Shown here in pieces: positions 1,838 to 62,319 of a stretch of DNA of 64,000 nucleotides. The notes under the pieces are model-generated. The model was given only the letters and a program-made list of their open reading frames with translations, had not been told where the DNA came from and made no database searches. The DNA lies in the IMG/VR virus record IMGVR_UViG_3300007512_000011, positions 50,968 through 114,967 of that record; one strand, written 5' to 3'. The translations under genes were made by a program, and so were the position numbers. Origin of the DNA: a virus. The stretch's first letter is position 1. Each line of letters begins with the position of its first letter.

Positions 1838-1846
1838 AATAAATAT
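1838..1846 (-). promoter_or_regulatory. late-promoter-like 9-mer ATATTTATT
   Basis: On the minus strand this reads ATATTTATT, 47 nt upstream of the ATG at 1790. It sits in the loop of a 6-bp inverted repeat (TACCAG/CTGGTA, 1831-1853). It is a member of the recurring motif family described in the findings, at a greater distance from the start than most. No transcription start is known. Confidence 0.35.
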
Positions 1847-1891
1847 TCTGGTAAGCTGATAAGTCGAATCAGACCTTAAATCATGCTGTAA

Positions 1892-3772
1892 TTAAATGCC
1901 GACATACTTGTCAATAATTGCCCAACCGTTTCCAGCACCGAGACAGATTAAAGTATGGCTAGTTTGATTTTCAATGCTTCCTATATTAGATGCTGCTCCG
2001 TCGATGACTGCACCATTTCTTGCTATTGTCAATGAGTTGCCACCGCCGCTTCCCCCTGAGTCGAGTCTTTTTATGATGTATTTTCTTCCTACAATTGCAT
2101 CTGCTGCTGGTGGTAATGTTAGTGTTACATTGCCTCCATTACAATCTGCAATTGCTACAGTGTGAGTCTCATCAAGTGCATGATTGCTAGCAAAGCTTGA
2201 GACCAGAAAACCAACAGATCCGCTAACCTGGAGTGTTGAACCTGGATTTGGAGCATTGATCCCAACTCTTCCAGATCCTGTGACAACTAAAAGATCAACG
2301 TAGCTATCAGAGCGAAGAGAGAGGAGGTTATCAGTATCTGTGCCAACAATCTGTACAGTCGCTGTTGGACTGTCGGTTCCAAACCCGAATGTTCCTTCAC
2401 TTTCATCAAAATAGAAACCCGTCGTTGTATTGTTACCGTATAGATGAAAGTCTCGATTCGTTGTGTCAAGCTTGTTTTTGCCGGAATGAGCCATCAACGT
2501 CATGAAAGCGTCACTATTCGTGGTAGTGCCCATCATCAGCTTGAGCCCGCCGCCAACCTCGAGATCTATCCGATAGTTACTAGTCGTATCATCAAGACGT
2601 AAAACAGAATCCGCGCCCACTATGTGTAGGATTTCTGCTGGAGAACCTGTTCCAATTCCAAGATTGCCCGATACAACTAGATCTCCGCCAAAGGCTGCGT
2701 GATTAATAGTTCCGCCGATTGCACCAGACACGAACCAGTTCACGTCTGATCCTGGTGTACCTTCCTTAAAGAAGGATACAGTGTCTAAGGTTGGGTCTAT
2801 ATTAAGAACATGAATCTCAGCAGATGTGTCGACTCTCATTCCGTACATAGAGTAAAAAGTTCCACTACTAAATAAATCTCCTCCAAAGACTGATGTTCCT
2901 CTAGCAGTAGTTCCTCGAGACGATATTGAACCTGAGACAAGGAAGTTTGTATCGGTTCCGGAAACTGTGTTGGATGCTATGGAAATCGAATCATTTCCCG
3001 CATCTACAAATAGCATGTGATTATTATTGTCACTTTCTACACGAAAATCATTTGTAGCATGTCCGTCGTCGTTTAAAACTACACCGGCAGAATTTACTGT
3101 AAGTGCTAGATCATTTGTATTGTGAATTTTTGTTTGGAAATTTGACTCACCATGATTAATGTGAAATACTTCATTGCCAGCGTGGAGATATAAAGCTTTT
3201 GTTTCATTAGGCGATTCTACTATAAAATCAACATCGGCGGCATTATCATTAAAAGTAATTTTATCTTGGGAACCATCTTCTACTATCGAAACAAAAGTAA
3301 CGCCGCCAGCAACTAATTCCATTTGATCATTAGCCGGCATTCCAATGTATGTGTCACCATCCCCTCGACGTTTTAGATAATCCCTAAAACTTAAATCACC
3401 ATTAACTGTGAGTGCCTCTACTTGTGTCGGAATTCCACCTGCTGATGTTTCACCGATTGCAACTTTTCCATCACCCCGGACCCTGAACACTGTTGTTATC
3501 CCAGATTCCACATCAAATAAATTTGTTCCAGTTCCACTTCCATCACTGGTTACCTTTAGTCCGTGACCTTGACTATTTTGATCATTGTCAATAACAGCCG
3601 CATATTTGCCTGAAAGACTGGTGTATAAATCTAAAGCCGGGCTAGATTCAGCTCCTGAAACTACCATGCTTCCTGTTACAATTACAGTTCCATTACCACA
3701 ATCAGTACCGCTTACAATAATTCCTTGGTTAAACCGCAGGGTGGTGATACCGAAGTTTCTCTTTGTTGCCAC
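1892..3772 (-). CDS. tail-fibre-like structural protein, 626 aa
   Basis: Starts at GTG 3772 behind GAGG five bases upstream. The protein is beta-rich and repetitive. Residues 138-300 repeat the block seen at the end of the neighbouring fibre gene (DFRVESDNNNHMLFVDAGN, then VSGSI..RGT..GT..FGGDL..SG). Several segments of GI.T.SPAE.L.I type follow at residues 340-520, each resembling the small beta modules of phage fibres. The C-terminal 70 residues (TLPPAADAIVGRKYIIKRLD to the end) resemble a fibre tip. No catalytic motif is visible. It lies directly downstream of the endolysin and is probably a virion fibre or adhesin. The receptor is unknown. Its neighbour at 1-1790 is a diverged paralogue. 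Confidence 0.75.
   Translation of the reverse strand: MATKRNFGITTLRFNQGIIVSGTDCGNGTVIVTGSMVVSGAESSPALDLYTSLSGKYAAVIDNDQNSQGHGLKVTSDGSGTGTNLFDVESGITTVFRVRGDGKVAIGETSAGGIPTQVEALTVNGDLSFRDYLKRRGDGDTYIGMPANDQMELVAGGVTFVSIVEDGSQDKITFNDNAADVDFIVESPNETKALYLHAGNEVFHINHGESNFQTKIHNTNDLALTVNSAGVVLNDDGHATNDFRVESDNNNHMLFVDAGNDSISIASNTVSGTDTNFLVSGSISSRGTTARGTSVFGGDLFSSGTFYSMYGMRVDTSAEIHVLNIDPTLDTVSFFKEGTPGSDVNWFVSGAIGGTINHAAFGGDLVVSGNLGIGTGSPAEILHIVGADSVLRLDDTTSNYRIDLEVGGGLKLMMGTTTNSDAFMTLMAHSGKNKLDTTNRDFHLYGNNTTTGFYFDESEGTFGFGTDSPTATVQIVGTDTDNLLSLRSDSYVDLLVVTGSGRVGINAPNPGSTLQVSGSVGFLVSSFASNHALDETHTVAIADCNGGNVTLTLPPAADAIVGRKYIIKRLDSGGSGGGNSLTIARNGAVIDGAASNIGSIENQTSHTLICLGAGNGWAIIDKYVGI
2873..3361 (-). repeat. 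block paralogous to positions 3-464
   Basis: Residues 138-300 of the 626-aa fibre protein align without large gaps to residues 443-597 of the partial fibre protein. Shared strings include GESNF.TKIHNTND, GHATNDFRVESDN and VDAG. The relation is also visible in the DNA around 3050-3075 and 140-170. It points to duplication of a fibre module between adjacent genes. Confidence 0.7.
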
Positions 3773-3807
3773 AAAAACCTCACAGCGCTATGACACATGC
3801 GCAATAT

Positions 3808-3816
3808 ATTAAATAT
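3808..3816 (-). promoter_or_regulatory. late-promoter-like 9-mer ATATTTAAT
   Basis: The minus strand reads ATATTTAAT, 35 nt upstream of the GTG start at 3772, in the 74-base gap after the endolysin gene. It belongs to the recurring motif family. The gap separates the replication/lysis operon from the fibre genes, which is where a new transcription start would be expected. Confidence 0.4.
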
Positions 3817-3846
3817 CACAGAGGTTATTAATTGGGCCGGCTATTA

Positions 3847-4791
3847 TTATTCAGTGTCCATACAGTATATCGGCTCATTCTTAACAGCATTAAGAAGATT
3901 CGGTAAATCTAAGCCGGCACAATCTTTTTTTGACTTAGTGAAATTATAATGATTACAGAATCCATGAAACTTTCCCCTCTCGCAGTCTTTGTGAACACCT
4001 GTTTCAATATGCCCGTTTGAATTTTTAGGATACTCTAGAGGAATTCCGTGGCCAATGTGGATAGCCTTCCATAGGGCCTTTAACGCTTCAAGTTGCACTG
4101 GGTAAAAATCCAAAAAGGGATCTAATTTCTTTCCGTGAACCCAGGCATTCTCCTGTATCGGCCTCTCCCCGAAGCCATGGTTGACATACCAATCTTGATA
4201 CTTGAGATAGTACGCATTTGATATCTCAACTCCAATCCCTTTTGTGTTTCCTCCTTCAAATCGAGGTATGCCAGCATGCCATGCTTTATGCTGGGTATCT
4301 AGCATCTGAAAGATTGTTCCATCATTATCGATAAGAAAATGAACTGATACCTTGCGGTTATTTAAAACTCTCGCACAAGACTCTGCGCTGAGACATACGT
4401 CCCAGTGGTTTACAAAGAATGTCGGTTTTCGATCGGGTTTCCCAGAATAATCAGTGTAGCAACCTTTTTTCGATTTAAACCCACTGGGCTCATCCCAAAG
4501 AATGACATTATTCCACTCGATCGGAATAAATGATCCGTTGTGGACAATGTGTTTGTCACCAGAAGTAGATACATGTCTTCTTGACTTGTAAGATGAAATA
4601 TTTGCCTCTCTCTCTGTCCAAATCCTTCTGTACGTCGCAGGACCCACTAAGCCATCTGCTGTTAAACCATTTTTTTTCTGCCACTTCTGAACTGCTTTTA
4701 CCAGGTTGACATCAAATTCATCACAGCCGAACCACGCGGGATTCCACCCAAGACTGGCTGCGCTTGAACTATTGTAAAAATCCTTATCCAT
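3847..4791 (-). CDS. endolysin: peptidoglycan-binding domain plus N-acetylmuramoyl-L-alanine amidase
   Basis: 314 aa. Residues about 8-58 form a PG_binding_1-like domain (WNPAWFGCDEFDVNLVKAVQ, then NGLTADGLVGPATYRRIW). Residues about 120-295 form an amidase_2 domain, a zinc amidase that cleaves the lactam-alanine bond of peptidoglycan. Probable zinc ligands are H129 (VNHWD), H281 (CNHYN) and C291 (KKDCAG); H151 and H172 (WHAGI) also lie in conserved segments. No signal peptide or membrane helix is seen, so export would need a holin, none of which I recognise nearby. The gene overlaps the upstream thioesterase gene by 8 bp and is the last gene of the operon that begins at recA. An unusual feature is the long segment between zinc ligands (residues 195-265), larger than in small phage amidases. 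Confidence 0.9.
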   Translation of the reverse strand: MDKDFYNSSSAASLGWNPAWFGCDEFDVNLVKAVQKWQKKNGLTADGLVGPATYRRIWTEREANISSYKSRRHVSTSGDKHIVHNGSFIPIEWNNVILWDEPSGFKSKKGCYTDYSGKPDRKPTFFVNHWDVCLSAESCARVLNNRKVSVHFLIDNDGTIFQMLDTQHKAWHAGIPRFEGGNTKGIGVEISNAYYLKYQDWYVNHGFGERPIQENAWVHGKKLDPFLDFYPVQLEALKALWKAIHIGHGIPLEYPKNSNGHIETGVHKDCERGKFHGFCNHYNFTKSKKDCAGLDLPNLLNAVKNEPIYCMDTE

Positions 4792-5218
4792 CTTTATCTG
4801 ATCCTGTATCCTTGAGAGATGCTAGGGATGACCTGTCTTTATATTTTTTCTTAACTTTGTCACTTATAGGAATGGCTTCTCCGTCGCCGTCGACCCTAAG
4901 GTAGGTTATCTCTGTTTCACAAACTGCTTTTTGTGTGCCATTGTATGGGCTGTGCCTGCGAGCTTCAAGTCTAATAATAATAGATGTGTTTCCAACACTT
5001 AAAACCTTACCATATATCTTGATAAGATGACCGGGTCTAACTGGTTTTTTAAAAATGCATTCTGCCATCTTTAGTGTCACCATTCTAGGTGTGTCACAGC
5101 ACTGGCCTGCATATGCTCCACCTGCTTCATCGAGCCATGAAAGCATCACGCCTCCAAATAAATTACCGTGGACACCAATATTTTGCCCCTTGCATATGTG
5201 AGTTGAAATAAGCTCCAT
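4784..5218 (-). CDS. acyl-CoA thioesterase, hotdog fold (YciA/BACH-like)
   Basis: 144 aa, a complete single hotdog domain of the usual length for the family. The N-terminal helix region reads HGNLFGGVMLSWLDEAGG (residues 17-34), matching the N..G..FGG......D pattern of cytosolic acyl-CoA thioesterases; D30 is the expected catalytic acid. The strands that follow (FKKPVRPGHLIKIYGKVLSV) also fit. The family hydrolyses acyl-CoA to free acid and CoA as a hexamer of hotdog domains. The gene is translationally coupled to the endolysin (8-bp overlap) and lies 8 bp after the ClpP-like gene. A membrane or lipid role during infection or lysis is possible but is inference only. Family assignment is firm; substrate is unknown. 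Confidence 0.85.
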   Translation of the reverse strand: MELISTHICKGQNIGVHGNLFGGVMLSWLDEAGGAYAGQCCDTPRMVTLKMAECIFKKPVRPGHLIKIYGKVLSVGNTSIIIRLEARRHSPYNGTQKAVCETEITYLRVDGDGEAIPISDKVKKKYKDRSSLASLKDTGSDKDG

Positions 5219-5226
5219 TTAAGTAC

Positions 5227-5829: not shown

Positions 5830-5841
5830 ACTTTTCTCACT

Positions 5842-14526: not shown

Positions 14527-14563
14527 GTAGATAAATATCTACAGTCTGACCAAACGTCACATC

Positions 14564-23594: not shown

Positions 23595-23815
23595 GCCTTG
23601 ACTCCTTCAGGTGTAAGTAGATCGTCTAGCTCATCTAGGACTGATGTCCTGTCATCCTTGCTCATAAGAAGTGACTTCATCCCATCATTTATTTGTTGTA
23701 GCTTCTCTGATAGCCTCTCAATCTCGGTCTCTACAAGCTCCTTGTCAGCAGGTGTCAAATTCTCAAGCACCTCCTGATAAAGATCGTTTGCTTTTACACG
23801 GTCGAATAAGCTCAT
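23576..23815 (-). CDS. small coiled-coil protein, 79 aa
   Basis: Not recognised. Almost entirely helical and charged, with a heptad-like section ELVETEIERLSEKLQQINDG (residues 25-44) and a Leu/Asp-rich end. The start overlaps the tape measure stop (ATGA) and the end overlaps the next gene by 19 bp, so it is translationally coupled on both sides. The position between tape measure and baseplate genes suggests an assembly factor or small hub component. Confidence 0.7.
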   Translation of the reverse strand: MSLFDRVKANDLYQEVLENLTPADKELVETEIERLSEKLQQINDGMKSLLMSKDDRTSVLDELDDLLTPEGVKAWQDKP

Positions 23816-25743
23816 GGTCCAACTCTCTCTGTGCTTATAACTATGTTGTTGCTGCCGGCGGGATTGCTAATAATCCGGTCAATTATGGGCTGACCGTCTA
23901 GCTGAACTGTGACCTGAAGAGGCTCGGATGTCTCACCGGTTGTCGCCATGATCTGAGAGATGAGCTCCTCGATCTTCTCACCCAGGCCTGTTAGCTTTTC
24001 GACTGCATCTGCCTGGCCTAGATGAACAGAATTAAATGCCTCTAGCAAAACTTCTGTGGGACGAACATCAACAGTTATATTCTCCAAGCTCTCGGTCGTT
24101 CCCTTAACAGCAGCTTCTATCGTCTGGGCAGTGCTATTAAGACTTTCTACTGTGCTAGATGCACTGTCTGCAGCGCTGGCGAGATTGTCTTCGCCAACAG
24201 CAAGAGCGTCTGATGCAGCAGTGGCCATGCTGCTATAAAATTCTTTAGTAAAATCCTTACCAGCTTCTAGTAGTTCCTTGAGTCCACCCTCCTTAGTCAA
24301 GTCTCCCAGCTCCTTGATCTTACCCATGAACGCATCAACATCTCCTGTTGTCGCACCTAGCTGTACAGCTGAAGTGGCAAGATTTGAGATCTCTAGTGTG
24401 CCAGTTGCAATTGAGCGTGACATGTCAGCGGTGCCGATCAAAAGCAACTCATTGACAAACTTATTGATTCTGGTGGCAGCATCTGTTATGGGAACAATGT
24501 TGTCCACCATCTGTGTTATGTCCTGCTCGACCTGATCAGCGTCTATCGCACCGCTCATTGCATCCATCGCATCAGCCACAGCATTGGCTCGAGTTGGATC
24601 AATGAGTCTGTCAACAGCACTGATGTCTGTCAGACCTGTTGATTGCATAATCAACTCCTTCTCAGCCCGTGTATAAGACTCCAGTGAGCGACCTGTTGAG
24701 ACGAATCCCTCCCTGAGACGTTCTAGGAATGCACCCTGGTCCTCGTTGGCCAGCTGCATTAGCTCCATCGCATCTAGCTGCATTCCAAACACTGAGGTTA
24801 GATCACCGACGGCGGTGGCGGCTGACTCAAAGCTCTGGAACTTGCCAACTGTGGCATTTAACTCCTGGAAGTTCAAACCCGTCACGTAGAGCGCTGCGGC
24901 GATCTTGGATGCCTCCTCTGGCATTACATTACCAAAGCGTTGTGTGTTGGATATAATCTGCTCTATGTGTCCTGCTATCTCCTTGTCAGAGGCACCCACA
25001 GCTTTCGCCACCTGGCTAGAGAAGACGTTGACCTCCTTCAGCATAGTTCCGGTGGCCTTACCGGTCAGGTCCACCTCACGAGAGATAAATGTTGCCACTT
25101 GCTCTGTCGAGAAGCCTAAATTCTTACCTGTGAGTGCCATGTCTCGTGCCAAATTCTCATTTGACGATCTCATGACTGCGTAGTTTTCTGTGGCGCGATC
25201 CTCGACTAGATATCGAAAATCCTCCATGTACTCATCAACATTTTTAAAGATATCATTTATGGTTATGCCAGTTGACAGAGCAGTCTCTTTACCCAGGTCA
25301 GCATACTGTGAAATCATTCGCTCCGTGACATCAGCTGTCGTCTGCGCACTCTTATTAGATAGATTGGCGTAGTCCTCAAAGCCTCCGCCGAAAGTGTTAA
25401 TCACCCTTAGGTACTGATCGCTGAATGGTTGTGCTGCGCGGATAGCACCCTGCATACCATCAAGTATCTTTGCGAGGGCTCTAGCAGAGGAGCCCTCTGC
25501 TGCATCTGCAAGACCCATCATCTCGGATATGGCCTCAGTCGCTCCTCTGTAGCCTGCTGTTACTGCCCTCGCCTGACCGCTGGGGCGGGCCAGGTCACCT
25601 GTGGCGCGCCTGGAATCCCTTGCCCGACTTTCGGGACTGTCACCTTTTTTCGCGAGCTCCGCCCAGTCCACACCAGCAAGTGTATCTGCGGTACGCTGGG
25701 CGTCCCTGAGCAATTTGTTGATTTGATCGGCAGTCCAGGCCAT
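23812..25743 (-). CDS. putative tail tape measure protein, 643 aa
   Basis: A long, mostly helical, Ala-rich protein between the tube/hub-chaperone genes and the large baseplate genes, the usual tape measure position. The region LNFQELNATVGKFQSFESAA, then DLTSVFGMQLDAMELMQLA, and STGLTDISAVDRLI resembles tape measure proteins of large myoviruses. Residues 500-580 are a low-complexity Ala/Ser helical section (AADSASSTVESLNSTAQTIE). If the usual 1.5 angstrom per residue holds, the tail would be near 95 nm, close to T4. GGAG lies upstream of the ATG, with a late-motif copy 17 nt upstream. Assignment is from position and composition, with partial motif support. Confidence 0.65.
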   Translation of the reverse strand: MAWTADQINKLLRDAQRTADTLAGVDWAELAKKGDSPESRARDSRRATGDLARPSGQARAVTAGYRGATEAISEMMGLADAAEGSSARALAKILDGMQGAIRAAQPFSDQYLRVINTFGGGFEDYANLSNKSAQTTADVTERMISQYADLGKETALSTGITINDIFKNVDEYMEDFRYLVEDRATENYAVMRSSNENLARDMALTGKNLGFSTEQVATFISREVDLTGKATGTMLKEVNVFSSQVAKAVGASDKEIAGHIEQIISNTQRFGNVMPEEASKIAAALYVTGLNFQELNATVGKFQSFESAATAVGDLTSVFGMQLDAMELMQLANEDQGAFLERLREGFVSTGRSLESYTRAEKELIMQSTGLTDISAVDRLIDPTRANAVADAMDAMSGAIDADQVEQDITQMVDNIVPITDAATRINKFVNELLLIGTADMSRSIATGTLEISNLATSAVQLGATTGDVDAFMGKIKELGDLTKEGGLKELLEAGKDFTKEFYSSMATAASDALAVGEDNLASAADSASSTVESLNSTAQTIEAAVKGTTESLENITVDVRPTEVLLEAFNSVHLGQADAVEKLTGLGEKIEELISQIMATTGETSEPLQVTVQLDGQPIIDRIISNPAGSNNIVISTERVGP

Positions 25744-25760: not shown

Positions 25761-25769
25761 CATACATAT
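25761..25769 (-). promoter_or_regulatory. late-promoter-like 9-mer ATATGTATG
   Basis: Minus strand ATATGTATG, 17 nt upstream of the tape measure ATG, in a 40-base gap. It is closer to the start than most family members, so a promoter here would give a very short leader. Confidence 0.3.
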
Positions 25770-25783
25770 TGTGCTGCTAGAAA

Positions 25784-26940: not shown

Positions 26941-27432
26941 TTAGAACTGGAGAACACAATTATCAAAGCGCAGCGTGAGAGAAATCTCAACGGGCTCTGT
27001 GTCATTATCGTATGTCAATGTATTGAAGTTGGCATTCTCAAGAAAGGCTCCCTTCATGTCCCAAAGCTCGACCACTGTTCCAATCGGATCGAGAAGCTTA
27101 AGCTGGACGTCCCTCTTGTAGAAATCCGCATAGCCAGCGCGACCGGAAACACTTTCGTAGTGAGTGCGAATCCATTCCATTACCTGCTGCGCACCGGAAG
27201 GCGCGATGGGATCGTGTAACGTAATTGACATATTTTGAAAAGTGAGACGACCAGCAACGTAGCGCTTTGCATTTATGAAGGGAATCTCCTTCATGGCAAT
27301 GTTCATATTTGGTCTAGCTGCCGTCTTCATTAGAAAGGCATCAACACCCTCAATGGCAAAAACCCATCTAAACTGTCGCTTCGGCTCAAATTTATTAGGA
27401 AGCATATCTGTAACTGATAGTGTTTCAGCCAT
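26941..27432 (-). CDS. tail tube protein (gp19-like)
   Basis: 163 aa, exactly the size of T4 gp19. Features of the family: an N-terminal strand FRWVFAIEGVDAFLMKTAAR, a middle MSITLHDPIAPSGAQQVMEW and a C-terminal TEPVEISLTLRFDNCVLQF. It polymerises into the inner tube through which DNA passes. It lies directly after the two sheath genes, as 18-19 in T4. AAGGAG lies upstream of the ATG, and a late-motif copy is 28 nt upstream. A hairpin follows the gene. Confidence 0.9.
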   Translation of the reverse strand: MAETLSVTDMLPNKFEPKRQFRWVFAIEGVDAFLMKTAARPNMNIAMKEIPFINAKRYVAGRLTFQNMSITLHDPIAPSGAQQVMEWIRTHYESVSGRAGYADFYKRDVQLKLLDPIGTVVELWDMKGAFLENANFNTLTYDNDTEPVEISLTLRFDNCVLQF

Positions 27433-27460: not shown

Positions 27461-27469
27461 CTTAAATAT
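27461..27469 (-). promoter_or_regulatory. late-promoter-like 9-mer ATATTTAAG
   Basis: Minus strand ATATTTAAG (GATATTTAAG with the preceding base), 28 nt upstream of the tube ATG. The tube gene also has a strong ribosome site and a downstream hairpin, fitting an independently transcribed abundant late gene. Confidence 0.45.
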
Positions 27470-27493
27470 CTGACTGCACATAATTCTTCTCTA

Positions 27494-30400
27494 CTAAACC
27501 TCCGCACCTGCATTTGTTACCACAAAGTCCAGCGCGATGAATTCTGCGGTTCGTGTAGGCTGTATAAAAATCTTTCCTCGAAGGGTATTATTTTCAACAT
27601 CAGCCTGTGTCGTTGTTGTCGTGTCAATCACCACCTTGTAGCGGTCCACACCGGATCTTTCTTGGATGCTCTGCAGAATCGGTGTTACTAGCGCATTAAA
27701 CCGATCAAGTGTCTCCTGCCTATTCGGCTCAAACAGCAGTGTGTTTGCAATGTTTCGGACAGATCGACGAATATCGATTAGAAGTCGACGAACATTTACT
27801 CGATCCAAGGAGGACTGTGATGCAAGCAGCGTCTTTTGTCCCCAGACCACAAGGCCTGTCCCAGGGAATGATGTTATCGGATTGATATCAGCATCATACA
27901 GATCATCTAGATTCGATCTCTTCAGTGGAAGTGAGGACCTAACTGCATTCAATGCGCCTCTGGAGAATCCAGCCGGTGCATACCAGGGGAATCCAATTGC
28001 ATCATTAAGTGAGAAAGCGCCTAGCACGCTAACAGAAGGGGGTACTTGAACATTGGTATTTGTCGTCGGATCAGTAACAATTGTATCTGGGAAGTATGCT
28101 GCTGCGAACGATGAGTCAAGGGCACGATCCTTAAATGCTGTGACTGTATTGCCCACATGAACCTGCTGCTGTGATCCTGTTACAATTGTGTTTAGTGTAT
28201 CTCTCTCCTCGACATCCATAATGTAGAGCGCATCAAATCTATCCTCTACAGCATCGATGGCAAAATCTGTAACAGCATCGTGCCTAATACCGGGAATTGC
28301 TAGAAGCTTAATGTCTACATCAGCCTTGGTAGCCATAATATCAACAGCCTTTCTGTAAGCTGCGACTGTGGAACCGTCTGTTCCTCCCTGATTTCCGGAG
28401 TCATCCATCTCTCTCTTAGCTGCAACATTAAGCAGATTTGCCTTTTCCTTGTTAAAGATGTTGACACCGTCAAATCCTCCCTGCAGAAAGAACGTGAACT
28501 TCGCGTACTTGCGATTTCCAGGCTTCCTAAGATCATCTGGTTTGAATGCGCGAGTCTTGTCTGCAATACTTGTTGGGATACTACCGTCTCTTGTGTAAGA
28601 AGCACTCACCCACTGCGACGGGTCAGCAAGGCCATCTGAGCCGGTTCGAATCTTAATTCTCTCAAGTGAGAATAGATTGTTATTGAATCTATCAGCATCC
28701 AAAACTGTTCCACCAGAATCTGCCTTTCCTGTATTATTACCAACAGATATATTTCTCACATCATCTCTAAATGATGAGAAATACGTTGTAAAGCTGTCAA
28801 TTGTCCTGTCGCGAACACCAACCCTATTTGGTTCGTCCAGACTGTCCTTTCTTGTGAACTGGACACCCCAATAAAGAGATGTAAGAGCTCGATCGTTCGG
28901 GAAGATTCCCACCTTCACACTCTCACGAAGCGGAACAGGTGGTTCGACGGTTCGCTTTAGAATTGTTAGTGAATCTCCAGCCTTACCCCATGTCGATTCT
29001 GATGCAAATCCAACATCTGTGAGAGGATCACTTCCTGATGTCACTAAGTGATTCGGACCTCTCATTCCCATTGGGAGTGAGTCGTTGGGAATAACTCCAT
29101 TCTTGAGCGCTGTGCTTTGCTCAATTCTTATTAGATTTGACTGCACTGGGTGGTCACCATCAACAACAATCTTTTGTGATCCAGCATTCTTATCAAAATC
29201 ATAAAATGTATTTTGATCTCCAATCACCCTTGCTACAAATCTATCTGATCCGGGATCTAGAGAGAGACCACGATATTGCTCAAGAATAGCCTTCTCATTG
29301 TCTGAGTCATAGTAATCCCGAACAATAAGATCAAAGTTTCCAAACTTATTTGTATCAGCTGTCGATTTCTGAATATTCTCAATAGAGATCTTTACCTTTT
29401 TATTTCCGATAGCACCGTCATCTAGAGAGTGTACCCTAAAGAGGTTGTACTTAGACCCACCAAAATCCTGACTGATGACATATGGTGAAACTGATGCAGC
29501 AAAACGTGTCTCGAAGTTCTCATAATCAGGTTGTGTTGCTGACCCATTGTTTCTTGCAGCACTACCTGTTGTCAGGAAAGCAATTGGCTCCAGGGTGTCA
29601 CCGCTCGGTAGTAGTGTTCCACTTCCGGGATACACAATGCCAACGCCCGTTACAACTGCAAGAGTTGGATGAATATCATAGCTAGAATAGAGAAGGTGTC
29701 CCTTCTTCTCTGCTAATAGCGGATCTGTGTTGAGGACATCAGCAAAGTAATTACTAGACCTAAGGTCAAAGGAGCATGTGATGACATTTGGATTTTCGGC
29801 GGTATTCTTATGCCCATTCAGAAGCATCACAAACTCCTGATTTGACAGGTTGACAGCACCTGTTATGCAGCCTTGAAGACTTGCTCCGTGATTGCCAAGT
29901 ATTGCTGGGCTTGTATTCGAGGGCTGGCCGTTTGATCCTGTGGCACTAACAGAAGATGCAGAAAGTGCGGGTATTACTCCAGAAGGTGCAAAAATCATCC
30001 CTCGAACAATTGGAACGGATCCATTCATACCTGTCCAGAAATGATTTACTCTATTTGATGCCTGATGAATGATACCCGCATCACTAAAGACTGTTGAACC
30101 TGCCGATTCCGACATGTACACACCAAGAATGTGTGTTCTTCCTAGATTTCCTTTATCCACAGCGTAGACATTTTTTCCCACACTGCCATTGTTCTGGGGA
30201 AGCTTCTGTCCAACTATGAACCCAGCATTCGTCACCTTGCCAGATGTTGCATTCTTCTTTTTGCCATCACCCACGCCAAGAACACGAACATATGTCAATG
30301 CTTGCGCATTTCTTAGCCATTCATTCACAGCGATTGGCCCGAACCTCTCACCGTCAGTGTTTCCAAAGGTATTTGCAAAATCTCTATAGCTAGCAACTGT

Positions 30401-30541
30401 TACAGGAACAAAGGCTGGGCCTCTTTCTGCAGTTCCAATCACACCAGCAGGTGTACCAACAGGCCCGCTCGTAGAGCGTCGCCCAGAGACGTCGATTTCT
30501 CTTGTGCTAACTCCAGCACTTCTGAAGACTATTTCGGCCAT
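27494..30541 (-). CDS. tail sheath protein, paralogue 2 (1015 aa)
   Basis: gp18-like contractile sheath. The N-terminal linker-arm region (VFRSAGVSTREIDVSGRRS, GTAERGPAFVPVTVASYRDF) and the C-terminal core domain (VNVRRLLIDIRRSVRNIANT, VDRYKVVIDTTTTTQADVEN, RGKIFIQPTRTAEFIALDFV) are typical of sheath proteins. The middle 600 residues are variable and probably form protruding domains; T4 gp18 is 659 aa, so this form is unusually large. It shares the whole architecture with the preceding gene (30578-33751), but the middle parts differ. GGAG and a late-motif copy lie upstream of the start. Whether both proteins enter the same sheath cannot be read from the sequence. Confidence 0.9.
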   Translation of the reverse strand: MAEIVFRSAGVSTREIDVSGRRSTSGPVGTPAGVIGTAERGPAFVPVTVASYRDFANTFGNTDGERFGPIAVNEWLRNAQALTYVRVLGVGDGKKKNATSGKVTNAGFIVGQKLPQNNGSVGKNVYAVDKGNLGRTHILGVYMSESAGSTVFSDAGIIHQASNRVNHFWTGMNGSVPIVRGMIFAPSGVIPALSASSVSATGSNGQPSNTSPAILGNHGASLQGCITGAVNLSNQEFVMLLNGHKNTAENPNVITCSFDLRSSNYFADVLNTDPLLAEKKGHLLYSSYDIHPTLAVVTGVGIVYPGSGTLLPSGDTLEPIAFLTTGSAARNNGSATQPDYENFETRFAASVSPYVISQDFGGSKYNLFRVHSLDDGAIGNKKVKISIENIQKSTADTNKFGNFDLIVRDYYDSDNEKAILEQYRGLSLDPGSDRFVARVIGDQNTFYDFDKNAGSQKIVVDGDHPVQSNLIRIEQSTALKNGVIPNDSLPMGMRGPNHLVTSGSDPLTDVGFASESTWGKAGDSLTILKRTVEPPVPLRESVKVGIFPNDRALTSLYWGVQFTRKDSLDEPNRVGVRDRTIDSFTTYFSSFRDDVRNISVGNNTGKADSGGTVLDADRFNNNLFSLERIKIRTGSDGLADPSQWVSASYTRDGSIPTSIADKTRAFKPDDLRKPGNRKYAKFTFFLQGGFDGVNIFNKEKANLLNVAAKREMDDSGNQGGTDGSTVAAYRKAVDIMATKADVDIKLLAIPGIRHDAVTDFAIDAVEDRFDALYIMDVEERDTLNTIVTGSQQQVHVGNTVTAFKDRALDSSFAAAYFPDTIVTDPTTNTNVQVPPSVSVLGAFSLNDAIGFPWYAPAGFSRGALNAVRSSLPLKRSNLDDLYDADINPITSFPGTGLVVWGQKTLLASQSSLDRVNVRRLLIDIRRSVRNIANTLLFEPNRQETLDRFNALVTPILQSIQERSGVDRYKVVIDTTTTTQADVENNTLRGKIFIQPTRTAEFIALDFVVTNAGAEV

Positions 30542-30565
30542 TTAGAATTCTCCGATAGTGTCATA

Positions 30566-30574
30566 CATACATAT
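30566..30574 (-). promoter_or_regulatory. late-promoter-like 9-mer ATATGTATG
   Basis: Minus strand ATATGTATG (within AAAATATGTATGTATGAC), 24 nt upstream of the second sheath gene and just after the first sheath stop. Independent initiation would allow the two sheath genes to be made in different amounts. Confidence 0.45.
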
Positions 30575-30577
30575 TTT

Positions 30578-33500
30578 CTACTCAAAACTAACTCCAGAAG
30601 TTGTTATAATGAAGTCAATTGCAATAAATTCAACTGCTCTTGTTGGCACTAAGACTATACGACCGTTAAGTCGATTTTGCTCGACATCATTCTGTGTATT
30701 ATTTGACTCGTCCATAACAACGCTGAATTGATCGATCCCTTGCTGGGATTGAATTAGTGATAACAGCGGTGTTACCTGTGCAACAAATCGCGCTCTTGTT
30801 TCTGGTGTGTTCTGTTCGAAAACTATCTTATTGGCCACATCAGAGATGATTCGCTTAGCTTCAAGAAGCATTCGTCTTACATTAACCCTGTCCAGAGCAG
30901 TCCTTGCCTGTTGGAGAGTTTTCTGACCAAATATCACGAATCCAGCATTGGGAAATGTTGCAATTGGGTTAATTTTTGACTCATAGAGATCATCTCGATC
31001 CCCTGCATTAAGGCGAATCTCTGTGTTTACTACAAAGTCTAAAGATGCTCTATTAAATCCTGCTGGTGCGAACCACGGGTATGAAACATTATCATTAAAC
31101 CCTAAGGCTCCCAAGACGGCGACACTAGCAGGTGTTTGAACAATTCTATTATTGATAGGATCTGTGATAGAAACATCTGGAAAATATGCTGCAGCGTAGT
31201 TTGTATCGAGTGCCCTTCCGTCAAATTGCTCTATAGTCTTTGCAACATCGGGTCGATTTGCACTATCTTCATAAAGCCTATTTCCGTCTCCGTCATAAGC
31301 CGGAACATCCAGAACATAAATTGCTTTGCTGTAATCTTCAGCAAGGTCTGTCACAAAGTCTGTCACCTTCCTATCTCGAATGCCTGGAATGACCAGTATA
31401 TTAATTCGTGATGAGAGCTCATCGGTCAGAATCTCTGCTGCTGCCCTGTAGGATAGAACAGTGCTGTTATTCTTTCCGGCACCTATGCCCATTGATGTAC
31501 TCAAACCGATATTCAAGGCGTTGCCGTCTGTGCTACTAGCATTTGCCTCTGAAGCCTTTCCATTTGTATCAGAAGATGTTGCCCTGTCATTGAGCCGAGC
31601 CATATCCCTATCAAGAACATTGACACCGTCAAATCCCCCGTAGAAGAAATTTGTGAACTTAGCAAAGCTTGTGAACTTATTGAAGAACACAGAGCCTGTC
31701 AGTGAGACAAGTGATGCGAAAGTAAGCCTTCCCTTTGAGACTCCATCACCAACAGTATAGAATGTGGGCAGCGGTGTGCCGTTTCTAATGTATGCTGCGT
31801 CTAGCATGTGCTCAGCAGCTGTTCCCGTTATCCGATCGACAATGCCTCTGTTTAGACCAGGGATTCCACTGCCAGTAAATGTGGTAATTGTATTGCCAAA
31901 AGCAACTCTTGCAAGGGTGAATTTATTATTATTAAACTCATCTCTTCCCGCACCTGTCACAAGTAAGTCCATCTCCTGAATTCCAAGCAGCTTTGTGTAA
32001 TTTGAAATTAGAGGGTTAGGCTGGCTCGAAACATTTGGATTAAAAATAGACTCCTTGAGTGTTCCACTAGATGGAACTATCTCGAATTTTGTTCCCCAGT
32101 AAAATCTAGAATCCACCCTCTCAGAATTTCCCGGAGAGCCGGCGAGTCCGCCTGATGCCACCCTGCCCCTTGTCACCTTAAAGCGATATGGGACTGGTGG
32201 AACAATTGATCCTGAAAGTCCACCTCGTAGCTCTGATGTTCCGGGTATTAACGAAATACCTTCCCATGATAGAGCAAGTCTTGTCCCTGCAAATCCCTCT
32301 GATTGGGCAGAGGTGGCATTGTCTGCTAATGTCTCAGTTGTCTTGAGAGCAGGAATGCCATGGAATCCGAAGGGAAGAGCACTGACGGGTATTTTTCCCT
32401 CCTCCACGTTGGGATGCATTATAATCCTTACTCGGCTTGAAACATTTGGATATTTTCCAGATACCAGTAATCTTCTTTCATCGGATGTTTCTGCATCGAA
32501 ATTATAAGCGACCTTCAGATCTCCAACTTTTCTGGCGACGTAATTTTCATCATTTGGATTAAGTGTACAAAGTGGATATTGCTCGAGGATCTCAGGATTA
32601 GTATCAATATCACTAAAAGATCTTACAAGAACGGTAAATGTACCAAACTTATCTTTTGGATCAGTTGATTTTCTAAGTTCTGCAATGGAAACCTTGTACA
32701 GTGTGTTTGCTTCCGATCCATCTGCTATCGTTTCAAAGTGAAATAGATCGTATTCTCTCTTTCCGTATGGCTGTGAAATAAACTTTGTGGTGCGAGGTGT
32801 GCGATATCTGGTATCAAATCGACCGTATGAATCTCTAAAGGCTTCAGATGCTCCATTTTCAGCTGATGTGGTGTTAGTACCTGACGCCAGCCCAACTGAA
32901 AAATCATAATCACTTACAGGTGCTATCTCATGTTCAACAGGAAAGTGAGCGTATAGCAGGTGCTGTTCTTCCTGGAACCTCTCTGGATCAGTGTTAAGAA
33001 CATTTGCGATGTAGTGCTTATTTTCAGGATCAAGAGACGCTGTGAAGATCTTTATCGAAGTGTGTCCTTCTGCGGTTCCAAATCCTGTTGAGGTTGAAGA
33101 TACAACAAGCTTAAACGTGTTAAAGAGAGGGTTTGATGAACCGGATTCAATTGTTGCAACTGAATTTCTTACATCTGCAGGCGAATAAGAACTTGAAGCG
33201 TTCAGTATTTGCATTCGTGTTCCAGTTGCTGACATTATCATGCCACGAACAAGATACACATAGTCTCCGCCGTTGACAATGTCGTAGCTGTCGTTATCAG
33301 TAAAGACTGGAAAACCTATTGTTTCTGTTGATGCAGACACAAAGTGACGCGCTACAAGAAACTGGACCGCACCATTATGGCCAGCGGATCCTCCTCCAGC
33401 GGCTGTACTCTTGATAATAAACCCAGCATTCTTGACGACTCCCTGGGTTATTGTCTTTTCAAAATCTGTTACAGTCTCATTTGATCCTGCGCCTAGCACA

Positions 33501-33751
33501 CGAACAAATGTAAGTGCTGTTCTGTTCTTTAAGAACTCACGAACAGCATAGGGTCCAAACTTCTTGTGATCAAGGGTTCCAAAACGTGCTTCAAAATCCG
33601 CAAATGATCCAACAGTCACAGGAACAAATGCAGGACCGGTCTTCGAAGTTCCCGCAACACCAGCTGGCACACCAATAATTTCTGATTCTCGTTGCGAAAG
33701 ATCGACTTCACGTTCGAAAAACCCTGGTGATCTAAAGATCTGTTCAGCCAT
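30578..33751 (-). CDS. tail sheath protein, paralogue 1 (1057 aa)
   Basis: gp18-like sheath. N-terminus IFRSPGFFEREVDLSQRES with GTSKTGPAFVPVTVGSFADF and C-terminus VNVRRMLLEAKRIISDVANK, IDQFSVVMDESNNTQNDVEQ, VLVPTRAVEFIAIDFIITT match the neighbouring sheath closely at both ends. The middle carries an extra Ser/Asn-rich segment (residues about 735-780, KASEANASSTDGNALNIGL) absent from the other copy. Contractile sheath proteins surround the tube and shorten on DNA injection. It is the first tail gene after the neck genes. Two related sequences (ATATTTATA and GTATTTATC) lie upstream of the start. Confidence 0.9.
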   Translation of the reverse strand: MAEQIFRSPGFFEREVDLSQRESEIIGVPAGVAGTSKTGPAFVPVTVGSFADFEARFGTLDHKKFGPYAVREFLKNRTALTFVRVLGAGSNETVTDFEKTITQGVVKNAGFIIKSTAAGGGSAGHNGAVQFLVARHFVSASTETIGFPVFTDNDSYDIVNGGDYVYLVRGMIMSATGTRMQILNASSSYSPADVRNSVATIESGSSNPLFNTFKLVVSSTSTGFGTAEGHTSIKIFTASLDPENKHYIANVLNTDPERFQEEQHLLYAHFPVEHEIAPVSDYDFSVGLASGTNTTSAENGASEAFRDSYGRFDTRYRTPRTTKFISQPYGKREYDLFHFETIADGSEANTLYKVSIAELRKSTDPKDKFGTFTVLVRSFSDIDTNPEILEQYPLCTLNPNDENYVARKVGDLKVAYNFDAETSDERRLLVSGKYPNVSSRVRIIMHPNVEEGKIPVSALPFGFHGIPALKTTETLADNATSAQSEGFAGTRLALSWEGISLIPGTSELRGGLSGSIVPPVPYRFKVTRGRVASGGLAGSPGNSERVDSRFYWGTKFEIVPSSGTLKESIFNPNVSSQPNPLISNYTKLLGIQEMDLLVTGAGRDEFNNNKFTLARVAFGNTITTFTGSGIPGLNRGIVDRITGTAAEHMLDAAYIRNGTPLPTFYTVGDGVSKGRLTFASLVSLTGSVFFNKFTSFAKFTNFFYGGFDGVNVLDRDMARLNDRATSSDTNGKASEANASSTDGNALNIGLSTSMGIGAGKNNSTVLSYRAAAEILTDELSSRINILVIPGIRDRKVTDFVTDLAEDYSKAIYVLDVPAYDGDGNRLYEDSANRPDVAKTIEQFDGRALDTNYAAAYFPDVSITDPINNRIVQTPASVAVLGALGFNDNVSYPWFAPAGFNRASLDFVVNTEIRLNAGDRDDLYESKINPIATFPNAGFVIFGQKTLQQARTALDRVNVRRMLLEAKRIISDVANKIVFEQNTPETRARFVAQVTPLLSLIQSQQGIDQFSVVMDESNNTQNDVEQNRLNGRIVLVPTRAVEFIAIDFIITTSGVSFE

Positions 33752-33783: not shown

Positions 33784-33792
33784 TATAAATAT
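33784..33792 (-). promoter_or_regulatory. late-promoter-like 9-mer ATATTTATA
   Basis: Minus strand ATATTTATA, 32 nt upstream of the first sheath ATG; a weaker second copy (GTATTTATC) lies 15 nt further upstream. The reverse complement contains the T4 late consensus TATAAATA, but that would point away from the gene. Confidence 0.45.
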
Positions 33793-33813
33793 GAGATAAA
33801 TACTCAATTGACC

Positions 33814-35702: not shown

Positions 35703-36878
35703 TTACCCCATGAATATGGCTAAGCCGTTTGGCATTGGTACGTACTTTAACTGCTTCTGTATTGACTCTGCACGAGCAGCAGCGACCTCCATCAGCTTAT
35801 CATATGTCATCGTGTCAAGCATTTCCTTAAGCTGTGATATTAGGGTAGTCTTATCCTCTCTTCCCTGTGCCACCAGATCAGTTCCATTTAGAGATAGATT
35901 TGCATTTGGTATCGGTATTGAGGCAAACTTTGACCTGATTAGGCCTAACTGCTCCCTGCTTAGCGCAAGAGAATACTGTCGTATCCATTGTCGACCAATG
36001 CTATTGATCCTGTTATACTGTAAGTTTCCAAAGGGCAGATCACTCAAGTTTGACACTCCGTCGATGGTCTCATCTGTGTATGCAGGATTGAGAGGATCGG
36101 AAAAGAATCTCACTCGAATGAATAGCTTCTTGGGATCATCTTTTGTCGGTTGCGGAAATATTCTGATCTTGGTCCCTATCACCTCATAGGAATAATTCGA
36201 GCGTCTAATTCTATTAGATAGATCTAGCTGGCCTGCTCGAAGAATATCCTCAAACACTGGTAGGACATAGAATATTGTCTCAGGTGTGAAGGATTCAAAG
36301 GAAAACTCATTATTAAGATAGTTGATTGCTGATGTGGTGTCAAAGAATCTGTATGCTGCCTGTGGAGAAAAGTGAAACACCTCATTGATTTGCACCTTCG
36401 TTCGGGGGGCAGAGTTCATGCTTGATGAGACGACAAGATTTCCCTGTTCATCCTTTAGCTCATCATAGATGTCGTAATCCTGTCGCCCTTTCTCTAGATC
36501 AATTGATCCTGACATCATATTATACGAGCCTCCAACCCCAGCTTCAAAGGAGTAAGGTTCGGCGAATCGTGTTAGATAGTCAAGATTTTCTCTTGGGTAC
36601 TTGCCTTCTGATCCCGATAGATTGCTTCCAGTTGGCATTCCTAAAAATTGAACAAGCTGTGACTTGGCCTGGTACTGATTTAATATTGAGCCGTACTCGA
36701 GAGCTGCTTCCTCAAGATTTCCCCAAATCTGCTTTTTTGTCAATTCGACGCTTAATACATCATCACCGAGCTTTCTCTTAACAAATACGACAATATTATC
36801 TGCCTCAGTTTTAAACTCAGACTCATCGTTAAAAAATCCAAAAGGCGTCGGATTTGTCGTATTTGCAAATGTTGCCAC
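35703..36878 (-). CDS. neck protein, gp13-like
   Basis: 391 aa from GTG 36878 with AGGAGA four bases upstream. The N-terminal FVKRKLGDDVLSVELTKKQI followed by LEEAALEYGSILNQYQAKSQ, the central NRIRRSNYSYEVIGTKIRIF and the C-terminal NSIGRQWIRQYSLALSREQL match T4 gp13-like head-completion proteins. They bind the portal and the gp14 protein. It is first of three consecutive neck genes. A late-motif variant (ATACTTATG) lies 28 nt upstream, after a hairpin that separates it from the 113-aa gene. Confidence 0.8.
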   Translation of the reverse strand: MATFANTTNPTPFGFFNDESEFKTEADNIVVFVKRKLGDDVLSVELTKKQIWGNLEEAALEYGSILNQYQAKSQLVQFLGMPTGSNLSGSEGKYPRENLDYLTRFAEPYSFEAGVGGSYNMMSGSIDLEKGRQDYDIYDELKDEQGNLVVSSSMNSAPRTKVQINEVFHFSPQAAYRFFDTTSAINYLNNEFSFESFTPETIFYVLPVFEDILRAGQLDLSNRIRRSNYSYEVIGTKIRIFPQPTKDDPKKLFIRVRFFSDPLNPAYTDETIDGVSNLSDLPFGNLQYNRINSIGRQWIRQYSLALSREQLGLIRSKFASIPIPNANLSLNGTDLVAQGREDKTTLISQLKEMLDTMTYDKLMEVAAARAESIQKQLKYVPMPNGLAIFMG

Positions 36879-36906: not shown

Positions 36907-36915
36907 CATAAGTAT
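36907..36915 (-). promoter_or_regulatory. late-promoter-like 9-mer variant ATACTTATG
   Basis: Minus strand ATACTTATG, one mismatch from the ATATTTATG form, 28 nt upstream of the gp13-like GTG. It lies downstream of a GC-rich hairpin, as expected for a new transcription unit. Confidence 0.35.
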
Positions 36916-36970
36916 CAAGACAGGACACAACGATTCTATTTACATTCACTTAATAGAACTTAATAGAGAA

Positions 36971-40904: not shown

Positions 40905-40945
40905 AATTGTTTCCTTTTTATGTTATGCTGTTGAATTACTTTACT

Positions 40946-43636: not shown

Positions 43637-43894
43637 TTAGAGATCCTTTAAAATATCACTTTTCAAAGCTTCTCGAATCCTAACGATTCTTTCTAGCTGC
43701 TTTTTAAGATTAGACTCATGAATTCCTAGCTTTTTTGCATGATCAATCTTATGAGAAAGTGTGCTTGCTTGATCTGCTGCGTCAACCTCTTCTGCTTTCT
43801 CAGCTCCTGGAAGACCTGCTTCTTGCATCTTTTGTCTTTCCTCAAGAACGAGTTGTTTTAGAAGTTCTGGTGTTAATTTAGTTACATTAGACAT
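43637..43894 (-). CDS. small helical head-cluster protein, 85 aa
   Basis: Not recognised. Helical throughout (LTPELLKQLVLEERQKMQEA, then LKKQLERIVRIREALKSDIL) with a short polar break. It could be a small core or assembly factor, like T4 gp67 or gp68 in size and composition, but I see no direct motif. AGGAG lies upstream and a late-motif copy 28 nt upstream, making it the first gene of a likely transcript that runs through scaffold and capsid. Confidence 0.65.
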   Translation of the reverse strand: MSNVTKLTPELLKQLVLEERQKMQEAGLPGAEKAEEVDAADQASTLSHKIDHAKKLGIHESNLKKQLERIVRIREALKSDILKDL

Positions 43895-43922: not shown

Positions 43923-43931
43923 TATACATAT
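43923..43931 (-). promoter_or_regulatory. late-promoter-like 9-mer ATATGTATA
   Basis: Minus strand ATATGTATA, 28 nt upstream of the 85-aa gene, inside the only gap above 30 bases in the head module upstream of the scaffold. Transcription from here would cover the small head proteins, scaffold and capsid up to the terminator at 38902-38937. Confidence 0.45.
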
Positions 43932-43962
43932 TCCGCTAGTCTTAAATTGACGCTAAAAGCTT

Positions 43963-50036: not shown

Positions 50037-50066
50037 GTTATCACCCGTTATAAATATCTATCATGC

Positions 50067-59239: not shown

Positions 59240-59256
59240 TTTTTAAACTCCGACTA

Positions 59257-59958: not shown

Positions 59959-59960
59959 CG

Positions 59961-60059
59961 TTAATTTCTCCTCGTTGTAAGTCTGTGCTGTTTGATCAAT
60001 TCAATACAAGGCTGACAACGTTCTCTGTTTTGTTTCAAGTATGTAATCACTTTTCTCAC
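59961..60059 (-). CDS. candidate 32-aa small protein
   Basis: GTG 60059 to TAA 59963-59961, starting MRKVITYLKQNRERCQPCIE; GAGG lies eight bases before the GTG. The reading frame looks protein-like, with a helix and a CxxC, and stays open upstream to residue-like CEAAEACT. Its stop lies in the spacer between the ribosome site and the ATG of the next gene, a typical coupling layout. A late-motif copy (ATATTTATG) is 31 nt upstream. The evidence is modest; it may be only a leader. Confidence 0.3.
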   Translation of the reverse strand: MRKVITYLKQNRERCQPCIELIKQHRLTTRRN

Positions 60060-60090
60060 GGTGCAAGCCTCAGCAGCTTCACATCCTGTT

Positions 60091-60099
60091 CATAAATAT
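60091..60099 (-). promoter_or_regulatory. late-promoter-like 9-mer ATATTTATG
   Basis: Minus strand ATATTTATG, in the 179-base gap between two virion genes. It is 31 nt upstream of the small GTG ORF and 132 nt upstream of the 233-aa gene. The match is exact. Confidence 0.45.
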
Positions 60100-60137
60100 A
60101 CAAGCTCTAATTATTCACAGTAAATAAAAACTCTGCA

Positions 60138-62285
60138 TTAGGTTGATGAATTAGGTGTTAATTGACCAAAGCCAGAAGATTGCACATCTCCTGTTGATCC
60201 AACTCTTGTTCCGGGTGGTGAAACCCTTAGTAATGGATCTATGGTGCTATCATTAATAAAAATATCTATGATCTCACTGCTTTGCAGATCTGTATTGATG
60301 ATCTGTAGTTTATAATTTGGATTCTCTGATACGCTGTTACCTTCTCCTGGAGATTGTGCTGCGATTAAATTCTCATCAATGACAGTTTCTGTTGCTGCAA
60401 TTCCGCTACCCTGGTCCTCATGAATATGTTTTCTTGTCACCTTTAAAAACTCAGGATCAAAATATAGCTTAATTCTTCTATGACCAGAGTCCCTCATAGT
60501 ATCAATAAATGTGTCACCAGTCATAAGCATATTTGGATAGGCTTTTGGAGCACCAGATCTAGATATCATTGTAATCCTTAGCTTATTCTTAAACCTGTCA
60601 TAACTAACTCTATACTGGATAGAATACTTTGAAGCAAGTCCTCTAGCATCAACTGATGCGACTGCGTAAATAAATGATGAATCCTTAGTAAACTGTCTAT
60701 CCCTATAAAATTTCTTTGGCATTGGCATCTTTGTCACGAGGGTAGGTGGAACAAGCTCCAATGGACGAGATTTTACCTCTGAGTCATCAAAATCATACTC
60801 AGCTAGAATTGTAAACGGTCTTGAAACTGACCGTCTTCTGAACACCTGAAACCTCTTAATGTCTCGTTGTGGATTTTGTGGAAATTCCCAAAATACAAGT
60901 AAGCTGTCAGTCTTAAAGTCATATTTAAATCTGATATCACCCGGAGGCTTGGGTGGAATTTTCTCCTGGCAGATGACAGTTGTCTTTTTTCCAGCAGAAG
61001 CTATCAAAGCAGTTGACATTATTACCTGATCGGGAGTCGAAGAGTCCCAGTCTCCACTATCTGTATCAATTCGAATTGACTCAAATCTTGACAGGGATAC
61101 AGCCCTTATATTATAAACATACGCACCCCCATAGCGGACAGCTGGATCGATAAATGATGTAATGCTAGGGCTATCAAGAATAACTGGAGGAAGAGGTGAT
61201 AGGTTTCCATCAGAAGTTATCTCAAATTTTTCGATGTAGTATCCTATGAGTGATGACCCCTCTTGTGTGCTAGCGTTGCTGTCAACACTGTCGTCTGGGA
61301 TGGCTTCCTGATGAATAACAGTCATTCCAGGCTGATACTCTGATGCTATGAGTGCTCCGGGTATGGCACTGGATGCGGCATCATTCTGGAGCTTGCTTGC
61401 CATCGATATAACTCCTCGCAGCTCATCCTCATAGACATTGACAGTGTCTATCACTGAACCGCTCAAGAGTGTTCCAAAAATTAAATTATTCACATTAAAA
61501 TTATTTTGAAGAATTTTGATGTCTGATAGTGGATTGACAATGGTCTCCTGTCTTGTGTCAGATTTTGCAAAACTAAAACCCATTGCCTGTGGGTTTCTCA
61601 AAGCAGATCGAATTAAGGATCCTTGTGTTGACGGAGTGACGACAGACTGTAGACCTTGTGACTGCTGTGACACAGAGCCTCCCATATCAGAAAAAACTGC
61701 AGATGATGACAGTGAGGTATAGAATGACTGATCAACACCTGTATCCATCAAGCTAACATTGCTGAAATATGCATTCGATATCGCTGATTCAAACATTAGC
61801 TGCGATGTGTGGTTCGACACTCGTACGTCTTTAAACTGGTCAAGTAATCCAAGATTATTGCTTAGAACATGCCCGAAGCCTGTCGAGCTTTGGTCTGCAG
61901 CAAACGTGTTGAAGTCCGGAGGTGTAAATGTTACCCTCACAAACCTTGGAACTCTATCAATATCTGCAAAGAAGTCCAAACCATCTGCAACTAATTGAGT
62001 TATTGTGACTGGAGATGTGGTCGTTCCCTGATTTACTCTCTCATCCGGAGTAAAGTAGACATAGCTAAACTCTGATTGAATGTTTGATGGCTCTGGGATA
62101 TCAATTCTGGTCACTGGTTTTGAGGGATAAGCAATTGGCAGCTCTAATTCGCGCATGAAACGTCGGGTATTTGTGCTCTGAGCTGGGGGTGGGAACTCAG
62201 GAATGGGAATGGTTCCGCCAGATTCTGCAATCTGTTCTGCCATTGCATTCTGCATGGCTGCAAGCATCTGATCAAGTGTTGGCAT
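60138..62285 (-). CDS. virion protein with fibronectin-III-like repeats, 715 aa
   Basis: Residues about 340-560 contain beta-sandwich sequence of FnIII type (IGYYIEKFEITSDGNLSPLP, GGAYVYNIRAVSLSRF; DIRFKYDFKTDSLLVFWEFP; IKRFQVFRRRSVSRPFTILA; FIYAVASVDARGLAS). The first 330 residues are Ser/Gln/Asn-rich without clear domains. FnIII and Ig-like modules decorate many phage virions and may bind host surface polymers. No T4 counterpart is apparent. It follows the 530-aa gene by 81 bp, with a motif variant in the gap. Confidence 0.65.
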   Translation of the reverse strand: MPTLDQMLAAMQNAMAEQIAESGGTIPIPEFPPPAQSTNTRRFMRELELPIAYPSKPVTRIDIPEPSNIQSEFSYVYFTPDERVNQGTTTSPVTITQLVADGLDFFADIDRVPRFVRVTFTPPDFNTFAADQSSTGFGHVLSNNLGLLDQFKDVRVSNHTSQLMFESAISNAYFSNVSLMDTGVDQSFYTSLSSSAVFSDMGGSVSQQSQGLQSVVTPSTQGSLIRSALRNPQAMGFSFAKSDTRQETIVNPLSDIKILQNNFNVNNLIFGTLLSGSVIDTVNVYEDELRGVISMASKLQNDAASSAIPGALIASEYQPGMTVIHQEAIPDDSVDSNASTQEGSSLIGYYIEKFEITSDGNLSPLPPVILDSPSITSFIDPAVRYGGAYVYNIRAVSLSRFESIRIDTDSGDWDSSTPDQVIMSTALIASAGKKTTVICQEKIPPKPPGDIRFKYDFKTDSLLVFWEFPQNPQRDIKRFQVFRRRSVSRPFTILAEYDFDDSEVKSRPLELVPPTLVTKMPMPKKFYRDRQFTKDSSFIYAVASVDARGLASKYSIQYRVSYDRFKNKLRITMISRSGAPKAYPNMLMTGDTFIDTMRDSGHRRIKLYFDPEFLKVTRKHIHEDQGSGIAATETVIDENLIAAQSPGEGNSVSENPNYKLQIINTDLQSSEIIDIFINDSTIDPLLRVSPPGTRVGSTGDVQSSGFGQLTPNSST

Positions 62286-62310
62286 GGTGCAACCACTCTC
62301 TTTGTCTTAA

Positions 62311-62319
62311 GTTAAATAA
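62311..62319 (-). promoter_or_regulatory. late-promoter-like 9-mer variant TTATTTAAC
   Basis: Minus strand TTATTTAAC (GTTATTTAAC), 25 nt upstream of the 715-aa ATG. It differs from the ATATTTAAN form at the first two positions, so it is the weakest listed member. Confidence 0.25.

Follow-up and report, generated by a model that had tools for sequence, protein, structure and literature searches.

We found a short element, R-ATA-N-T-TA-W, in front of virion genes of this uncultured marine phage, and we propose it as the -10-type core of late promoters, most likely read by a divergent sigma factor of the gp55 family that the phage itself encodes. From the comparisons below we infer promoter activity, its timing, reading by a gp55-like protein and a gene for that protein in the missing part of this phage. 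The window, which is the whole 64,000-base stretch analysed, covers bases 50968-114967 of a linear 114,967-base IMG/VR record. PHROG matches of the record indicated a myovirus of the T4 superfamily, with genes for portal, terminase, prohead protease, capsid, sheath, tube and a gp13-like adaptor as well as gp46-, DnaB-, UvsX- and ssb-like genes. All long genes of the window are on the minus strand. By sheath, the closest cultured phages are Microcystis phage Mel-JY01 and Flavobacterium phages of the immuto group. The sheath itself is encoded by two tandem genes of about 1.0 kaa each (window 27494-33751), a pair that is kept in many relatives.

The sites in the window are listed below. Scores in bits were obtained with a weight matrix built only from relatives, and the orthologue counts are upstream regions with ATANNTAW.

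33785..33793, minus strand: CATATTTAT before sheath 1 (30578-33751), 11.3 bits; 31/38 sheath-1 orthologues
30567..30575, minus strand: AATATGTAT before sheath 2 (27494-30541), 9.4 bits; 33/40 orthologues
27462..27470, minus strand: GATATTTAA before the tail tube gene (26941-27432), 10.8 bits; 20/25 orthologues
36908..36916, minus strand: GATACTTAT before the gp13-like head-tail gene (35703-36878), 11.5 bits; 15/21 orthologues
43924..43932, minus strand: AATATGTAT before the 85-aa head gene (43637-43894), 9.4 bits; 12/15 orthologues
50050..50058, minus strand: GATATTTAT before the 126-aa gene preceding terminase, 11.8 bits; 16/27 orthologues; newly added
25762..25770, minus strand: AATATGTAT before the 643-aa gene (23812-25743), 9.4 bits, 27 nt to the start; newly added
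3809..3817, minus strand: GATATTTAA before fibre 2 (1892-3772), 10.8 bits; no orthologues recovered
1839..1847, minus strand: AATATTTAT before fibre 1 (start 1790), 11.7 bits; no orthologues recovered
60091..60099, minus strand: ATATTTATG ahead of a small ORF in the gap that follows the 715-aa gene; exact match, next long gene about 140 nt away, uncertain
23837..23845, minus strand: possible CATAGTTAT 30 nt ahead of the 79-aa gene, within the last part of the gene before it, 10.7 bits; in coding sequence, weak
62311..62319, minus strand: TTATTTAAC before the 715-aa gene, judged not an instance

The original prediction had named nine strings of the form ATAT(T/G)TA(T/A) as a phage-specific late promoter, and all nine were found on the minus strand where it had placed them. 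Two good sites, 25762-25770 and 50050-50058, had been overlooked. The exact pattern ATAT[TG]TA[TA] lies 10-65 nt upstream of 8 of the 48 genes in the window, and the predicted enrichment before genes was borne out, as 1000 dinucleotide shuffles gave a mean of 0.53 genes and a maximum of 4. Over the 115-kb record, this word is found 22 times on the coding strand against 3 on the opposite one, and 14 of the 22 coding-strand occurrences fall in intergenic DNA, which makes up 4.5% of the record. With the weight matrix from relatives, 11 of the 48 window genes were positive (shuffles 2.12 ± 1.32, maximum 8). No element was present upstream of ssb, recA or the capsid gene, in agreement with the original prediction. 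An exact ATATTTAT also occurs at window 14531-14538. It is only 5-12 nt upstream of the 580-aa gene, a distance that would suit a promoter only if the true start of that gene lay downstream. In motif discovery, the element was the dominant motif only once relatives were added; in the 115-kb record alone, de novo EM returned a different, TCTAACAGCA-like motif first.

Relatives were collected as about 190 loci from IMG/VR scans with a terminase, sheath 1 and a sigma, and the orthologue upstream regions were gathered and thinned to <72% identity. Prior-free motif discovery on these regions yielded one motif, [A/G]ATANTTA[T/A], with 153 sites in 160 virion upstreams and an EM score of 335 compared with 31-43 in shuffles. 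The frequencies in the 153 sites are A.99, T 1.0, A 1.0, N, T.78, T.99, A.99 and W, giving the consensus R-ATA-N-T-TA-W with five columns at 98-100% and one at 78%. The word ATAT(T/G)TA(T/A) was therefore too narrow, because relatives take any base at the fourth position of ATAnTTAW. The string at 62311 fails this consensus, since in TTATTTAAC the first A of the ATA core, conserved in 98% of sites, is missing.

The strict pattern was present in 107 of the 160 virion upstreams (tube, sheath, gp13-like and neighbouring genes), a set of seven genes of which two, p494 and p126, were added after the data had been seen, whereas shuffles gave 10.4 ± 3.0. Only 1 of 59 upstreams of replication genes carried it (Fisher p 1e-20), and on the opposite strand of the virion upstreams the same pattern occurred in 12 of 160. 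The five genes named in the original prediction (tube, both sheaths, gp13 and the 85-aa gene) stand without p494 and p126, as ATANNTAW was found in 71-83% of each of their orthologue sets. No -35 element was present in the 153 aligned sites, and the information in the flanks was near background, with small bumps that probably come from the preceding coding sequence. The portal, terminase, protease and capsid genes of relatives, which are mostly internal to operons, were without the element, and capsid, portal and terminase would rely on read-through. The element was found before 1 of 26 capsid orthologues and before 13 of 19 copies of p494, the gene directly preceding capsid. In the capsid gene region (window 40905-40945), words of the CAACTGCA/AACAGCA type stand before the start in 8 of 26 orthologues instead; a word of this type also topped motif discovery in the 115-kb record.

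T4 late promoters consist of TATAAATA at -13 to -6 and depend on gp55 (PMC2988020, PMC7892883). When the two are aligned unflipped, the element shares A-12, T-11, A-10, T-7 and A-6 with the T4 promoter, which is five of eight positions. It differs at -13, where A or G is found and not T, at -9, which is free here (T in immuto), and at -8, which is T and not A. The proposal that the T4 element is present as its reverse complement on the sense strand is therefore not favoured; the flip is only apparent because the outer letters ATA..TA(T) are near-palindromic. In register, the element is probably T4's TATAAATA with only -13, -9 and -8 changed, rather than T4's element reversed. By its letters alone it would fit either orientation, since ATA..TAT is its own reverse complement, but the unflipped reading requires no new geometry, and the distance to the start codon supports it: with the same script, the median from core to ATG was 33 nt in the far-T4 clade, 34 nt in T4 and 28 nt in the late class of immuto. 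As a control, the same pipeline recovered TATAAATA in T4 unprompted, and TATAAATA itself was present in 1 of 160 virion upstreams of the relatives.

A candidate reader was found in larger relatives, which encode a 243-253-aa protein with a weak match to PHROG 234 (gp55). It is present in seven clade contigs, Mel-JY01 and immuto (9 proteins; the immuto member is immuto35A_152, QQO92070.1), and is annotated as hypothetical in the cultured phages. When the nine far-T4 proteins were compared with six gp55 proteins by hhalign, the probability was 94.1% (E 1.3e-7) over 117 columns of sigma region 2. Single members matched the gp55 profile with E 1.8e-4 or not at all, and T4 gp55 taken alone gave no significant hhalign match, so that the match to the gp55 family is remote. 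The gene lies 33-47 kb upstream of terL in 7/7 contigs extending that far (G007, G009, G010, G015, G017, G018 and G020; on the opposite strand in G018), while the seven contigs that have the terminase but not this gene extend no more than 2-29 kb upstream of terL. The 115-kb record has no gp55-like gene, but it stops 14 kb upstream of terL, and hence this absence says nothing.

Both the motif and the gp55-like protein are present in the complete records of immuto (160 kb), which is in culture together with its host Flavobacterium sp. LMO8, and Mel-JY01 (190 kb). In immuto, the motif is (A/C)TATTTATA before sheath, tube, hub, tape measure and other genes, and in Mel-JY01 it is ATATTTATA before tube and other genes. 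The immuto matrix scanned over Mel-JY01 gave 11 of 88 positives versus 2.0 in shuffles (maximum 6); EM on Mel-JY01 itself returned a top motif unrelated to the element.

The first candidate reader was a split sigma, made up of the SigA-like sigma of the clade and its abutting 94-aa partner, which together would form a two-protein sigma analogous to gp55/gp33. The sigma lies outside the window (C1:6462-7232) and has regions 1.2-4.1 with region 4.2 missing, which would suit promoters without a -35 element, and sigma and partner stand head to tail in 28/28 nearer relatives. However, the SigA-like sigma is absent from the complete records of immuto and Mel-JY01, which argues that the motif goes with the gp55-like protein. 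Its region 2.4 is also that of an ordinary SigA-like protein, and the partner failed its tests, with no fold match and a profile probability of 0.35 against sigma region 4. This candidate was demoted for these reasons, and we consider it improbable. The partner, of 83-98 aa in the 28 relatives (directly after the sigma in L009:6177-7232, L012-L038 and L045), is of the form MSMPKGHK...GLGYREIAE.MT..G.KMNHSTARN, and comparison with 50,697 phage records, Pfam, PHROGs and PDB folds gave no match to it. Larger relatives also encode small Cys-rich proteins (74-81 aa) in which sigma region 4.2 is clearly recognised (Pfam Sigma70_r4 E 2.8e-10) and which are a candidate region-4 partner for some phage sigma:

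L216:854-1078, minus strand: Cys-rich region-4.2 protein
L215:968-1213, plus strand: Cys-rich region-4.2 protein

It is still less probable that the element is the -10 of a host promoter (sigma-70 / group 1) recognised by the host polymerase without modification. Four positions of RATANT are like those of TATAAT and the intergenic DNA of the window is AT-rich, but the first-position T that TATAAT needs is almost absent (7-8%), virion upstreams seldom contain TATAAT itself and there is no -35. The same word is also used by phages of Flavobacterium and of Microcystis, and immuto has a separate class of host-type promoters with TTG. The EM motif of immuto at first mixed this class with the late class. 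In the host-type class, TTG-N20-TATnTTTAG, 14 of 18 sites carry the TTG at a constant position, but sites of the late class share no TTG at a constant distance upstream, and hence phage-type and host-type promoters are separated within one genome. The Bacteroidota house-keeping promoter is TTG / TAnnTTTG; it shares the T-rich -7 element and is represented in immuto by the separate class, while the late class is without TTG and ends in TTTATA, not in TTTAG or TTTG. A cluster of host-type promoters, TTG-N20-TATnTTTAGG, was observed before short genes at 20-79 kb of immuto (L234, L236).

A signal for mRNA processing or translation in late leaders would keep the distance to the start codon within a limited range, as is seen, but this explanation is the least credible of all, because the spacing varies over 18-61 nt with a distribution like that of T4 late promoters by the same measurement, the element is limited to some of the virion genes, where there are gaps, and five of its eight bases are common to the proven promoter of T4.

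The phage-specific late promoter of the original prediction is thus well supported by conservation, class specificity, the absence of a -35 element, T4-like spacing and hosts of different phyla. Its expectation that the recognition protein would differ from T4's probably holds as well, but the change would be conservative and points to a divergent gp55 rather than an unrelated factor. In the mechanism that we propose and consider probable, host RNA polymerase would carry the phage-encoded, divergent gp55-family sigma, and this holoenzyme would be directed to R(-13) A T A N(-9) T(-8) T A(-6). DNA would be opened at the element, with the start a few bases downstream, and late mRNAs would get leaders of roughly 10-30 nt with a ribosome site. 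No -35 would be needed, as in T4, and compared with T4 TATAAATA the specificity would have moved at -9 and -8 (and -13).

In the cryo-EM structure of T4 gp55 on a promoter, Y97 stacks on A-12, N13 and H95 touch A-9, and T99 forms a hydrogen bond with A-8 (PMC7892883). In an alignment that was judged after the motif had been seen, the equivalent of Y97 is Tyr in 9/9 far-T4 proteins, and A-12 is 98% conserved in the sites. The equivalent of H95 is Phe in 9/9, and -9 is free in the marine clade; the equivalent of T99 is Asn, Gln or Ser, and -8 is T. Hence, the shift in specificity at -9/-8 appears to match the replaced pocket residues. This would make the clade a natural experiment in sigma specificity, in which the changed base and the changed pocket residue are testable one against the other.

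The T4 system also includes a clamp-binding tail on gp55 and gp33 (PMC2988020), and the tails of marine gp55-like proteins resemble it: five of seven end in a hydrophobic/acidic tail of the YDIFF, YDIF/FDIFF type. Such a tail is not evident in the gp55-like proteins of immuto and Mel-JY01. T4-type gp33 and gp45 (PHROG 254, 223) had no convincing match in 17 clade contigs, while the T4 control was found; many of the contigs are partial, and clamps diverge. After the gp55-like gene, L218-L224 encode a conserved 111-125-aa protein with a tail of (D/N)DIF or DIY type, which is possibly a candidate late coactivator or a virion protein. A tentative scenario, to which we give fairly low credence, is that far-T4 phages kept a gp55-type sigma, re-tuned the promoter at -9/-8 and swapped the gp33/gp45 module for other partners, such as this protein.

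A survey of far-T4 phages published in 2015 did not detect the T4 core genes that regulate transcription and suggested that transcription patterns might differ (PMC4360716). The candidate late promoter and its probable reader would fill this gap. The literature searched, which covered few subscription papers, contained no description of the motif or of a gp55 in far-T4 phages. The element can also be used to mark late operons in many phage contigs from marine metagenomes.

Compared with known systems, the element shares with T4 late promoters the -10 position, the lack of a -35 and the specificity for virion genes, but unlike them it has sites on one strand only in this window. The late consensus of Aeromonas phage Aeh1, a member of the T4 family, departs from that of T4 at -13/-12 (PMC2988020). 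Its -13 is a/g, a departure from T4 like that of the element, whereas the element keeps -12 and alters -9/-8. The far-T4 proteins share with the gp55 family (PHROG 234) the homology in sigma region 2 and the Tyr at the -12 pocket, but they are longer (232-256 aa versus 185), the equivalents of H95 and T99 are replaced and some members fall below ordinary HMM detection. We class the element and the gp55-like protein together as a variant of the T4 late promoter / gp55 system.
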